Assembly: GCF_014489495.1 (NCBI RefSeq)
Contig: NZ_CP060780.1
Span: 124,001-188,000, forward strand
Length of the DNA: 64,000 nt
Direction: 5' to 3'
Source of the DNA: Sphingomonas daechungensis
Lineage (GTDB): Bacteria > Pseudomonadota > Alphaproteobacteria > Sphingomonadales > Sphingomonadaceae
In this document: one piece after another, positions 51,075 to 63,154 of the stretch
Numbering within the stretch: position 1 is the first letter of the stretch
Layout: every line of letters starts with the position of its first letter
Program-made: the position numbers and the translations under genes
Notes under the pieces: model-generated
The model's database searches: none
Told to the model about the DNA's origin: nothing
What the model saw: the letters and a program-made list of their open reading frames with translations, nothing else

Positions 51075-51136
51075 AACCCTTCCTTCGGGAGCCGGGTGAC
51101 ACTGCCTATTGAGCCCGCTTCGTTGCCCTTTCGGCC

Positions 51137-51225
51137 GCATCGCCCCGCTCGGGACTGCCACCTTGCCCGGGAGGGCAGGTTGGCGTGGGTCGTTGGCCTT
51201 TTGGCCGCCAGCCCACTCTTGATGC
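51137..51225 (-). ncRNA. SAM riboswitch aptamer (S-box/SAM-I type) upstream of metX
   Basis: On the minus strand a P1 helix pairs GCATC (51225-51221) with GATGC (51141-51137). Inside are ATCAAGAG, a P2 helix closed by GTGGG/CCCAC, GCCAACC, a P3 hairpin TGCCC/GGGCA, AGGTGGCAGTCCC and a P4 hairpin CCCGAGCGGG. This order matches SAM-I-family aptamers. It ends 63 bases before the metX start, so control of translation or of early termination in methionine abundance is expected. Confidence 0.78.
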
Positions 51226-51289
51226 TTCCCGCGGCCCAGAAGAGCCACGTTGGATCCCAAACTATGCTGCAGCGCAGCTTAACGTCAAG

Positions 51290-56853: not shown

Positions 56854-56857
<4 letters not shown>
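55799..56857 (-). CDS. aroC: chorismate synthase
   Basis: Intact, 352 residues. Signatures: [59 protein letters not shown] and [20 protein letters not shown]. It forms chorismate from EPSP using reduced FMN. ATG overlaps the pheA stop. One of the few genes in this operon read without a frame break. Confidence 0.95.
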
Positions 56858-58685
<1,828 letters not shown>

Positions 58686-58689
<4 letters not shown>

Positions 58690-60523
58690 GCAGCGTTGGC
58701 GCGCTTAGCCTGATCCGCCACCATCGCTGCAACGGCGTGGGCGACGTCTAGCGCCTGGGCTTCGTTGAGGCGCGGATCGCAATGCGTGAGGTACCTGCGG
58801 CCTAGATCCTCGCGGGCTAGGTTGATGCTGCCGCCGAGGCACTCTGTCACGTCCGACCCCGTCATCTCCAGGTGGATGCCGCCTCCGTGGACGCCCTCGG
58901 CCTCGGCGATCTCGAAGAAAGTCCGGACTTCCTTCACGATATCGCCGACCATGCGGGTCTTGAGACCCTCCACGGTCCGCGTGTTGCCGTGCATCGGATC
59001 AATGCTCCAGATCACCTTACGGCCTTCGCGGCAAGTTATGCGCATCAGCTCCGGGAGGTGCTCCGCGACCTTGTCGGCACCGAAGCGGCCGATCAGGACG
59101 AGCTTCCCGGGCAGATTGTCGGGATCGATACGGTCCATCAGGCGGAGGAAATCGTCGGCGTTGATGCTTGGACCACACTTCAGTCCGACAGGATTGCCGA
59201 CGCCGCGAGCGAACTCGACATGAGCGCCATCCAGTTGTCGGGTCCGGTCGCCGATCCACAACATGTGACCGGACGTCGCCCACCATTGCTCGCTCGCTTC
59301 GTCGAAACGGGTAAGCGCCTGTTCGTAGTTGAGAAGCAAGGCTTCATGGCTCGTGAACATCGAGATCGGACGCGGAGGCTCCTTCAATCCGACTTCGCGA
59401 TGGACTCGCGGCAGGTCCGCGTAGGACGCGGATGCGTAGGCCTGCAGCAATTCGATGGTCACCTGCGCCTGACGATGAGCATCGAGGAGCCGCTTCGGAT
59501 CGGGAACACGAGCCAGAGAAGTGAAAGCCGGGCCGTTTACGGCGTCGCCCCTGTAGCTCGGAAGCGTGACCTCGCCGATCGTCTCGACGGGTGACGAACG
59601 TGGCTTCGCAAATTGTCCGGCAATCCGTGCGAGGTGGACAACATCGCTCCCGGCTGCCCGGACGATCGCACCCATGCGCAACAGTAGGTTGTAGGTTACC
59701 CGGACTTTGTCGGCATCGAACTCCGCGAAGCTTTCCGCGCAGTCGCCGCCCTGCATGATGATCGCCTCACCATTCGCGACCCTTGCGAGCGCTGCCCGCA
59801 GGTGAATGATGTCCGCGACCTCGACGAGAGGTTCCGAACCGGCAAGCCGGCGCTCGACACGCGAAAGCGCCTCGGGATCGGGATAGTCAATCAGCTGCTC
59901 GGCCGGACGCGATCGCCAGGCCCCGGGCGTCCAATCGGATTTCGGTTGATGAGCTTTGGCCTCCGCCGGCGATTTTGCCTGAATCGCGACATTCTCGGCG
60001 GATACGCGACCCACCGCAAAAGCGACATTTCGGCCATCTTCCGACTGGAGTACGTCAAAGACCCTGAGCTCGCCCTCGGTCTCCGGGATGGATTCCGTGA
60101 CGATGGCGATCGCTTCGCCTGCGAGCGCCGCACGAATGGCGTGTGCCTCGCTCGCCGCCCAGCGAACCGATGCCGCCGAGCCGAAATGGGCGCGAACGCG
60201 CGCCTCCAGCAGTTCCGGATTGTCGGACGGGCCAGGACGAGGTCGGTCATGGCCTGCGCCTGAAGACTGTGGGCCATAATCTCGCGCCAGACCTGCTCGA
60301 TCAGCATCGGCGCAGCGCGATCGGACCGATCCTTCAGCCGATCGAGGATCTGCACCTGACGCTTCGGCCGAATCTTCAGGTGGCGATCGCCTTCGGCATC
60401 CTTGCGCGCCGCAATATCGGCGGACGCCGCTAGCCGTTGCTCGATCAGGTCGAGGATCTGGTCGTCGATCCGGTCCAGATTTCCTCGCAGCGCAGCGAGG
60501 TCCTGCAGTTGTTCCTGGGTCAC
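58686..60523 (-). CDS. chorismate mutase fused to class II DAHP synthase
   Basis: About 612 residues when repaired. Residues 1-90 form an AroQ chorismate mutase ([31 protein letters not shown]). A further 80 residues ([40 protein letters not shown]) resemble the prephenate-dehydratase half of P-proteins. A linker rich in Ala, Lys, Gln and Pro leads to a class II DAHP synthase: [71 protein letters not shown] and [18 protein letters not shown]. One break at about 60226 lies in the first part; after it no stop occurs before the synthase. GTG 60523 is the start used; the synthase alone could start at GTG 60014. Confidence 0.75.
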
Positions 60524-60559
60524 GTTGGTCTCGTTCTTGTGCCGCTTATCGGTGCGGCG

Positions 60560-60620
60560 GTTTACGGGTCAGTGCGTCTGCAAAATCTCCGGCCGCCCGT
60601 AGGCGTACCGGCCCGTAAAC
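60560..60620 (-). promoter_or_regulatory. inverted repeat in aro leader RNA
   Basis: GTTTACGGG (60620-60612 on the minus strand) pairs exactly with CCCGTAAAC (60568-60560), enclosing the 3' half of the leader peptide frame. A second small hairpin, GCCGC/GCGGC, follows at 60558-60541. No U-tract is seen, so control may be at the level of translation of the first gene. Confidence 0.5.
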
Positions 60621-60691
60621 GAGACAAAAAAGCGCCAACCACGAAGCGACGTCGCGAAGTCCGAACCGTTGCTGTTCGCCGTGATGGTCAT
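60569..60691 (-). CDS. aromatic-residue leader peptide of the aro operon
   Basis: 40 residues, starting [12 protein letters not shown], with [16 protein letters not shown] (residues 18-33) holding one Trp, three Phe and two Tyr. It lies 45 bases before the chorismate mutase-DAHP synthase gene. AAGGGG precedes the ATG, though with almost no spacer. Such enrichment for the end products of the operon is the hallmark of an attenuation leader. Confidence 0.65.
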
Positions 60692-60784
60692 CCCCTTAAG
60701 GCTGGCGAAAGGCGACGGACATGTCAATATGGGATCCCTTTCAACGCATTGTCGAAGGTCCGGAACCTGATAAGAGCCGCCGCC

Positions 60785-61929
60785 ATGCCCGAACTCGAAG
60801 AGGCTTTCGTGCGGCCCTCCGCACTGATCGAGGCCGCGCGCCGGATCACCGTCAAGGTGGGCTCGTCGCTGCTTGTGGAGCCCGGCGGCAATGGGATCCG
60901 GAGTGAATGGCTCTCGCGATTGGGGAGCGACGTCGCAAAATTGCGGAGCGCAGGCAAACAAGTCGCCCTGGTCTCCTCCGGGGCCGTAGCCCTTGGTCGG
61001 CAACACTTGTCTCTCAAGCGTTCGCCGAAGCTCGCCCTCAAGCAGGCAGCCGCAGCGGCAGGCCAGCCGCTGCTGATGCAGGCCTGGGACAAAGCACTCG
61101 CGCAATTTGGGATCCCGACGGCGCAGCTGTTGCTGACTCTCGATGACACGGAATCGCGCCGGCGTTGGCTCAATGCCAGGGCGACCATGGAAGTGCTGCT
61201 CGGGAACGGAGCCATTCCGGTCGTGAACGAGAACGACACTGTGGCGACCGAGGAACTTCGCTACGGCGACAACGACCGGCTGTCGGCAAGAGTCGCGCAG
61301 ATGATCCAGGCGGACCTGCTCATCCTCCTCTCGGACGTCGATGGCGTCTACACCGGCGACCCGTCGCGAGACCCGTCGGCAGAACATATGCCACACATCT
61401 CCGTCATCACCGGCGAGGTCGAGGCCTGGGCGGGAGGGCTTCCGGCGCCGGGCTAGGCTCGGGCGGCATGCGGACGAAGATCGCCGCAGCGCGGATCGCC
61501 CAGAGTTTCGGCTGCGCGACCGTCATCGCTTCGGGACGCGGAGGGCATCCGCTCCGCGCGCTTGGCGATGGCGGTCGCGCAACCGTCATCGATGCGAAAG
61601 GGTCGCCCGCGCGCGCCTACAAGCAATGGATCGCAGGCACTCTTGTCCCGGCAGGAAGTGTCAGCGTCGATGCGGGGGCAATGGCCGCGCTATCGGCCGG
61701 CAGAAGCCTTCTCCCGGCCGGGGTGAAGGCAGTCGAGGGCACGTTCGAACGCGGCGTTTGCCTGCGCGTCCTTGGATCGGAGGGCCAGGAAGTTGCCCGG
61801 GGCATCACCGCCTATACGTCGTCAGAAACTCAGGCGATCCTGGGTCGTCCGAGCAGCGAGTTCGAAGCTCATCTCGGCTACTCCGGTCCTGACGAGCTCA
61901 TCCATCGCAATGACCTGGTGCTGATGTGA
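60785..61929 (+). CDS. proB: glutamate 5-kinase
   Basis: About 381 residues when repaired. The kinase domain has [51 protein letters not shown] and [15 protein letters not shown]; a C-terminal PUA domain spans roughly residues 280-370 ([17 protein letters not shown] to [12 protein letters not shown]). It phosphorylates glutamate in proline synthesis. One break in a G run at 61450-61452. Its TGA overlaps the GTG of proA. Confidence 0.9.
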
Positions 61930-63154
61930 GCATCCATGAACAGATCGCAGCGATGGGTCGCAATGCCCGAGACGCCGCCGACGTCCTTCGCGGTGCGCCT
62001 GCCGAACAGCGCAGCGGGGCCATTCGCACAATCGCGGGACGCATTCGCGACCACTCCGAGAGCATCTTGGCGGCAAACGCGGCAGACGTCGCCGATGCCA
62101 CGGCCCTCGTGGACAGGTTGCTGCTCACCCCGAACGCGTCGAAGCGATGGCGCAAGCGGTCGAGGCCATCGCCCATCTGCCGGATCCGGTTGGCGCAGTC
62201 ATCGAGCAATGGACGCGCCCCAACGGCTTGGAGATTTCGCGCATTCGCACGCCGATCGGGTAATCGGCATGATCTACGAGAGCAGGCCAAACGTGACCGC
62301 CGATGCGGCAGCGATTTGTCTGCGGTCCGGGAATGCCGTCATCCTGCGGTCGGGATCGGAGGCCCTGCGAAGCTCGCTGGCGATCGGGGAAGCGATTGCC
62401 GAGGCTCTTTCCGAAGCTGGCTTGCCGACCGGATCCGTCCAGGTCGTACCGACCCCGACCGTTCCGCCGTTGGGTTCATGCTCGAAGGGCTGAACGGTTC
62501 GATCGATCTCCTCATCCCTCGTGGCGGCAGGGCGCTTGTCGAGCGTGTACAGAACGAAGCTCGTGTGCCTGTGCTTGGGCACCTGGAAGGCGTTTGCCAC
62601 ACCTATGTTCACGTCTCGGCAGATCCGAAAATGGCCGCGGAAATCGTCCGCAACGCCAAGCTGCGGCGGGTCAGTGTTTGCGGCGCCACCGAGACCTTGC
62701 TGATCGACAGCGATGTCGCTCCCGACTGCTTCCGAGCATCGCAGAGGCGCTGGGAGGGTGTGAGCTTCGCGGAGATGAAACCGCGCGAGCAATCGTGCCG
62801 ATGGCCGCGGCCAGCGACGCGGACTGGCATGCCGAATATCTTGAACCCGTCCTCGCGGTGAAGACGGTTTCAGGTGTCGACGAAGCAGTCGATCACATCC
62901 GCCGCTACGGGACCGGTCATACCGAAGCGATCATCGCCGAGGATGCCGAGGCCGCCGAGCATTTCCTCGATCGCGTCGACAGCGCCATCGTCCTTTGGAA
63001 CGCATCGACCCAGTTCGCTGACGGCGGTGAATTCGGGTTCGGTGCGGAAATCGGCATTGCGACGGGGAAGCTTCACGCTCGCGGTCCGGTCGGGCCCGAG
63101 CAGCTGACGACTTTCAAGTATCAGGTCCGCGGAACGGGCCAGATACGCCCCTGA
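61926..63154 (+). CDS. proA: gamma-glutamyl phosphate reductase
   Basis: About 410 residues when repaired, starting at GTG 61926 (GTGA overlap with proB). Visible blocks: [57 protein letters not shown], the catalytic Cys in [12 protein letters not shown], and [18 protein letters not shown]. It reduces glutamyl phosphate to the semialdehyde. Four breaks, at about 62131 (C), 62260 (G), 62456 (C) and 62733 (C), make it the most damaged gene with the MHS and GH3 genes. Confidence 0.88.

Follow-up and report, generated by a model that had tools for sequence, protein, structure and literature searches.

The window, as we call the whole 64,000-nucleotide stretch of DNA analysed here, carries on its minus strand a 40-amino-acid leader frame that runs from an ATG at 60691 to a stop codon at 60571–60569, with 45 nucleotides between this stop and the GTG start of the chorismate mutase gene (60523). 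A preliminary description had placed this frame before an aromatic operon, and Pfam bears the operon out, giving CM_2, DAHP_synth_2, EPSP_synthase and PDT, in this order, for the four genes downstream (Table 1). The aromatic stretch of the leader (one Trp, three Phe and two Tyr) is present as described, and homologues of the frame precede chorismate mutase genes in other genera. The second Tyr and much of the GRYAYGR stretch sit in a conserved hairpin (60589–60611), whose covariation accounts for the conservation of that stretch. Upstream, the window and the related locus L002 share TTGACA-N17-CAGCCT-N7-ATG (60691–60727), a spacing from which the transcript would thus start at the leader ATG and the leader frame would itself be leaderless; a Shine-Dalgarno-like pattern lies ahead of 33 of the 43 leader frames collected below.

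Several features of the surrounding sequence deserve mention in their own right. By reading, a frameshift at 59891–60014 separates chorismate mutase from DAHP synthase in the window, and further frameshifts at 61456–63154 break a divergent proB-like gene and the proA-like gene that follows it (names assigned by eye). Chorismate mutase and DAHP synthase form a single open reading frame in L003 (Pfam) and L002 (by reading). Given these frameshifts and a genome completeness of 86.6%, the interruptions may be indel errors in the assembly. The window also contains a SAM-I-IV riboswitch (51109–51230, minus strand), and another genome of the genus has a SAM riboswitch (RF00162; L010, 993–1114) close to its chorismate mutase locus.

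Table 1. Features of the leader and the downstream operon (window coordinates; probabilities are for predicted pairs, p values are against shuffled sequence)
Feature	Position	Strand	Remarks
Possible promoter, TTGACA-N17-CAGCCT	60699..60727	(-)	By eye; same spacing in L002; consensus scan chose a different site
Leader peptide ORF, 40 aa, ATG start	60569..60691	(-)	Homologous ORF in 42 further loci
Putative regulatory codons: Trp 60637-60635, Phe Phe 60631-60626, conserved Phe UUU 60619-60617	60617..60637	(-)	Aromatic codons here in relatives too
P2b 5′ arm, GTCTCG, between Phe pair and conserved Phe	60620..60625	(-)	p 0.080; 0.85 free, 0.00 ribosome-bound
P2a 5′ arm, GTTTACGGG	60612..60620	(-)	7 inner pairs: 0.91 free, 0.17 with ribosome on Phe codons
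P1 hairpin, CCGGTACGCC / GGGCGGCCGG	60589..60611	(-)	Overlaps end of leader frame; window copy without one base of 3′ arm
P2a 3′ arm, CCCGTAAAC	60560..60568	(-)	Same basis as P2a 5′ arm
P3 hairpin, GCCGC...GCGGC, between P2 3′ arms	60541..60558	(-)	Probability 1.00 in both states
P2b 3′ arm, CGAGAC, ribosome-binding region, 5-10 nt before GTG	60528..60533	(-)	Equivalent helix covaries in other genera; window outside that alignment
GTG start codon, chorismate mutase gene	60521..60523	(-)	
Chorismate mutase - class II DAHP synthase	58686..60523	(-)	Two frames in window
EPSP synthase (aroA)	57502..58689	(-)	PF00275
Prephenate dehydratase (pheA)	56854..57336	(-)	PF00800; first part in another frame

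A fragment of the chorismate mutase was matched in 14 of 61 genomes (its own and 60 of the same genus), and reading upstream of these 14 loci disclosed an aromatic leader in 12, among them that of the window; L005 and L008, both of the window's genus, had no leader in the 340 nucleotides read. When 71 genomes of the genus were searched with a covariance model of the leader (R1), 12 had a hit with E ≤ 2e-8, in every case ahead of a chorismate mutase gene, and the hits at 13 places with E ≥ 4.8e-4 were rejected as unrelated sequence that by eye looks like chance. Stricter filters apply once a search takes in more than 40 genomes, which makes absence in such searches soft. Across 397 genomes of the family, R1 returned nine hits, of which seven precede chorismate mutase genes (in the genera g54, g60 and g7), one is the window and one is due to chance. 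A second model (R2), run over 246 genomes of the order, gave five hits, two of them true (the window and g60); the remaining three (E 1.4e-5 to 6.2e-5) fall outside the family, in another one, and were set aside as chance, two lying inside a coding sequence that we take to be metG. Searched with a protein profile of the long chorismate mutase, 199 family genomes yielded 10 with a match, the 26 genomes of g54 yielded 18 and the 10 of g7 yielded nine, and the leader stands ahead of the gene in all 18 g54 and all nine g7 matches, as it does at two loci in g60 and two in g52. Because all 27 loci of g54 and g7 possess it, the leader goes with the long form of the enzyme, which, to judge from these genomes, it accompanies in a minority of the family. 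The set analysed below comprises 43 leaders from five genera of one family, namely the window and 42 further loci (11 more from g1, 18 from g54, nine from g7, two from g60 and two from g52). A variant leader, GLFSTGRA-stop, in L112 (genus g20) was missed by the collecting pattern and is outside all counts.

Over at most 12 codons per leader, up to and including a conserved UUU, the 43 leaders contain 114 Phe, 62 Tyr and 7 Trp among 506 codons, compared with 49, 22 and 77 among 6450 codons of the chorismate mutase genes. Aromatic codons number 183 in the leader frame and 28 and 87 in the other two. Phe occurs in all 43 leaders, one codon (UUU) being guaranteed by the pattern used for collecting the loci, and at least two Phe occur in 41; Tyr is found in 27. 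Trp is found in 7, at four different codon positions, and the Trp at codon –6 (60637–60635 in the window) is confined to the window and L002. Among 29 non-redundant leaders, an aromatic codon stands at –6, –5, –4 and –3 in 11, 14, 21 and 16, with Phe and Tyr interchanging; at the fourth codon before the conserved Phe, which specifies one or the other in 21 of the 29, TTT, TTC, TAT and TAC all occur. The aromatic codons might have varied freely among relatives, an outcome that the preliminary description had named as speaking against its proposal; this was looked for and not seen. Its suggestion that the leader senses all three aromatic amino acids together did not survive, since Trp lacks conservation and the Phe and Tyr counts stand against a handful of scattered Trp codons. 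On the evidence of the codons, the leader is conserved and its reading would be of Phe and Tyr, not of all three. Phe codons in one species stand where another has Tyr codons, as might be expected of a joint reading, and chorismate mutase is the branch-point enzyme common to exactly these two amino acids. UUU appears 67 times in the leaders (43 of these being the conserved codon, whose invariance is in part a product of the collecting pattern) versus once in the 6450 chorismate mutase codons, and as a rare codon it may sharpen sensing.

The end of the leader frame falls in P1, a hairpin of 10 base pairs that covaries: 99.6% of cells are paired across 29 sequences, two-sided changes occur at three pairs, and none of 500 shuffles reached its covariation score. 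The leader stop codon lies inside the P1 loop in 29 of 43 members, at an offset of +18 or +21 counted from the UUU; in the other 14 it comes later, and the window is one of these, its frame reading on through P1. Because its outer pairs are predicted to form in both states of the window (probability 1.00 in the free RNA and 0.98 with a ribosome on the Phe pair), P1 would not be the switching part when a ribosome occupies the Phe pair. A second switch, in which the 3′ arm of P1 would pair with a motif after P2, was no better supported than in shuffles (mean z –0.19 over 43 loci).

The 9-base inverted repeat reported in the preliminary description is exact and proves to be one helix, P2a, within a more extensive fold. 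For the window RNA without a ribosome, P2a, P2b, the outer part of P1 and P3 are predicted to coexist in one junction that includes the start region. A gapless helix between leader and spacer of the grade of P2a arose in about 1% of 300 shuffles of the window (p 0.010), and a looser duplex measure of the same pairing gave p 0.17. When gapless helices were scored against 300 shuffles at all 43 loci, the codon region reached p 0.05 with the start region at 11, with the spacer at 14 and with either at 23; the window did so with the spacer and stood at p 0.080 with the start region. Two alignments, each anchored on the downstream motif, addressed the two pairings separately, and in both of them the share of paired cells, like the covariation score, is beyond shuffles. 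For the spacer motif, the alignment holds the 12 loci with a recognised motif, that is, 11 of the 18 of g54 and L006 (L087, L091, L092, L094, L096, L097 and L101 being left out); here 85% of cells pair, versus 20–38% at slid positions, and the covariation score was reached by 0 of 500 shuffles, two of the five measures not being beyond shuffles (two-sided pairs, 61/500; pair types, 81/500). The alignment for the ribosome-binding region comprises 13 loci with six distinct sequences, in which 83% of cells pair, versus 21–50% when slid; two of 500 shuffles reached the covariation score, and two measures were not beyond shuffles (179/500 for two-sided changes, 262/500 for pair types). Across L049, L051 and g7, TTTCGG is followed by C, A or T, which face G, T or A. 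As judged by these alignments, the pairing of codon region and start region is a covarying one in three other genera (g7, g60 and g52); in the window it is predicted, and is not significant alone. For the alternative helices that the preliminary description had asked to be sought in relatives, these pairings of the codon region are the candidates.

Covering the codons, as a ribosome would, opens P2 in the models and makes the start region cheaper to open, by a predicted 4.4 kcal/mol in the window, 12.3 in L049, 6.3 in L051 and 5.5 in L104. The claim of start-region opening in the window rests on its relatives, because the native effect was equalled by 17% of 40 shuffled codon segments. The effect is beyond shuffles at 0.05 in 8 of 37 representatives (L049, L051, L103, L104, L107, L113, L086 and L110), the window not among them; in L110, a g7 member without part of the pairing, it amounts to only 0.3 kcal/mol. 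P2a and P2b of L049 and L051 behave like those of the window; some helices are weak, with a probability of 0.20 for P2 of L090 and 0.00 for the second helix of L104.

The conserved leader, its aromatic codons, the covarying P1 and the covariation that marks pairing between the codon region and RNA further down are observed, and from them we infer a ribosome-controlled leader that would read the supply of Phe and Tyr and act by translational attenuation, a reading to which we assign a probability of roughly 0.6. With Phe-tRNA and Tyr-tRNA plentiful, the ribosome would complete the leader and depart, and the freed codon region would fold onto the downstream RNA (P1, P2a, P2b and P3). In the window lineage, g7, g60 and g52, P2b would then cover the ribosome-binding region of the chorismate mutase gene and turn it off. 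With Phe or Tyr short, a ribosome stalled on the aromatic codons would mask the 5′ arms of P2a and P2b, leaving the start site free. Translation of the leader, stalling, the direction of the switch and control at translation initiation are all presumed in this scheme, and translational attenuation is the most likely mode for g7, g60 and g52 and, with less certainty, for the window.

Classical transcription attenuation would instead make P1 an intrinsic terminator in the window lineage, its formation set by the position of the ribosome. P1 is G+C-rich and is followed by TTTT (60589–60599 in the window) in the window, L002, L003 and L004 only, the last three being the nearest relatives of the window by chorismate mutase; as the T run is restricted to these four, P1 may double as a terminator in this lineage. 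However, a run of at least four T within 12 nucleotides 3′ of P1 is absent from the other 39 of the 43 members, for which a terminator role is unlikely; a terminator scan of 60400–60900 found none; the loop of P1 so often houses the leader stop codon; and its outer pairs form with or without the ribosome. We regard termination at P1 as improbable. Conservation of the peptide end across genera could also be read as a nascent peptide, SF.GRYA, that arrests the ribosome by its own sequence, independently of Phe and Tyr supply. Yet the conserved residues coincide with P1 and P2, the P1 arm CCGGTACGCC changes to CCGGCATTCC with pairing kept while the peptide changes from RYA to RHS, and the run alternates between Phe and Tyr, which suits the reading of codons; arrest by the peptide is very unlikely. 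A single window can, by accident, have a random frame with an aromatic run beside an inverted repeat that has nothing to do with it, but such chance can hardly account for homologous leaders at 42 further loci, nor for a control in which none of 30 standalone chorismate mutase loci (the 30 best-scoring of the search) had an aromatic window beyond shuffles, versus 24 of the 43 leaders.

A further alternative concerns the output rather than the sensor: start-site pairing may operate in some lineages, and a downstream hairpin switch or Rho-dependent termination elsewhere, namely in g54 and in some members of the window's genus. The partner of the g54 codons is a motif (consensus CGAGCTGAAACGCC) some 40 nucleotides ahead of the start, with a hairpin close behind, and at 16 of 17 loci covering the codons had no effect on the start site beyond that seen in shuffles. 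An anti-start-site helix is found just after the leader stop in L010 (p 0.056), L012 (p 0.076) and L014 (p 0.010), although among all 43 loci such a helix in the spacer falls below 0.05 in L014 only. We put the odds of such lineage-dependent output at about even, and it is compatible with translational attenuation as the explanation for the window. By eye, GTCTCAC directly after P1 in L087, L091, L092 and L094 could form a helix with the GTGAGAC or GTGAGGC found at the start site, possibly another output device of g54. More tentatively, and somewhat short of an even chance, the leaders may constitute an alphaproteobacterial family built on a common sensing module, a run of Phe/Tyr codons that ends in a hairpin whose loop contains the stop codon; this module would read joint Phe/Tyr supply and be coupled to genus-specific output devices, one of which uses the codon run as an anti-start-site sequence for chorismate mutase. 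The exchange of Phe and Tyr between species makes the idea of a joint sensor directly testable.

The locus has the marks of a ribosome-mediated attenuator, namely a short leader frame before a biosynthetic operon and a conserved run of codons for its end products (Phe and Tyr). Rfam gave no match over the leader at gathering score (window and 12 loci), and the single match at a loose threshold was discarded as chance (E 3.9). The statement in the preliminary description that no sphingomonad example had been described agrees with the open-licence literature, where no aromatic or sphingomonad leader of this kind was found by title or abstract. The leader is thus a conserved control element, undescribed as far as searched, for the Phe/Tyr branch point in one bacterial family.

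Among known systems, Phe-rich leaders of gamma-proteobacterial pheA and pheST, the former before the chorismate mutase/prephenate dehydratase gene, were reportedly described by Vitreschak and colleagues in 2004. They end in an intrinsic terminator; the likeness is a Phe-rich leader before a chorismate mutase gene, whereas 39 of the 43 members here have no T run after P1. Two further motifs are comparable (PMC8632094). The uORFC-13-1 motif of Acholeplasma shares a short Phe-codon frame before an aromatic pathway entry gene, and differs in its adjacent terminator, its host and its gene (aroF). The uORFC-8-2 motif of Rhodobacterales is likewise an alphaproteobacterial candidate for ribosome-mediated attenuation, distinguished by a Cys-codon upstream frame before cysS and by a terminator stem. 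A close parallel in layout is the LEU element before leuA in Actinobacteria, a leader frame with a codon run for the pathway product, whose regulatory codons were proposed as pairing partners of the start site (Seliverstov et al. 2005, PMC1262725). Membership of the LEU family was dismissed, the gene here being chorismate mutase and not leuA; the actinobacterial element has Leu codons and a pseudoknot, whereas the present leaders have Phe and Tyr codons and a covarying hairpin at the leader end (PMC1262725). Translational attenuation as proposed for the LEU element is the most likely mode here, suggesting that pairing between regulatory codons and a start site, proposed for leuA in Actinobacteria, may serve aromatic amino acids too.
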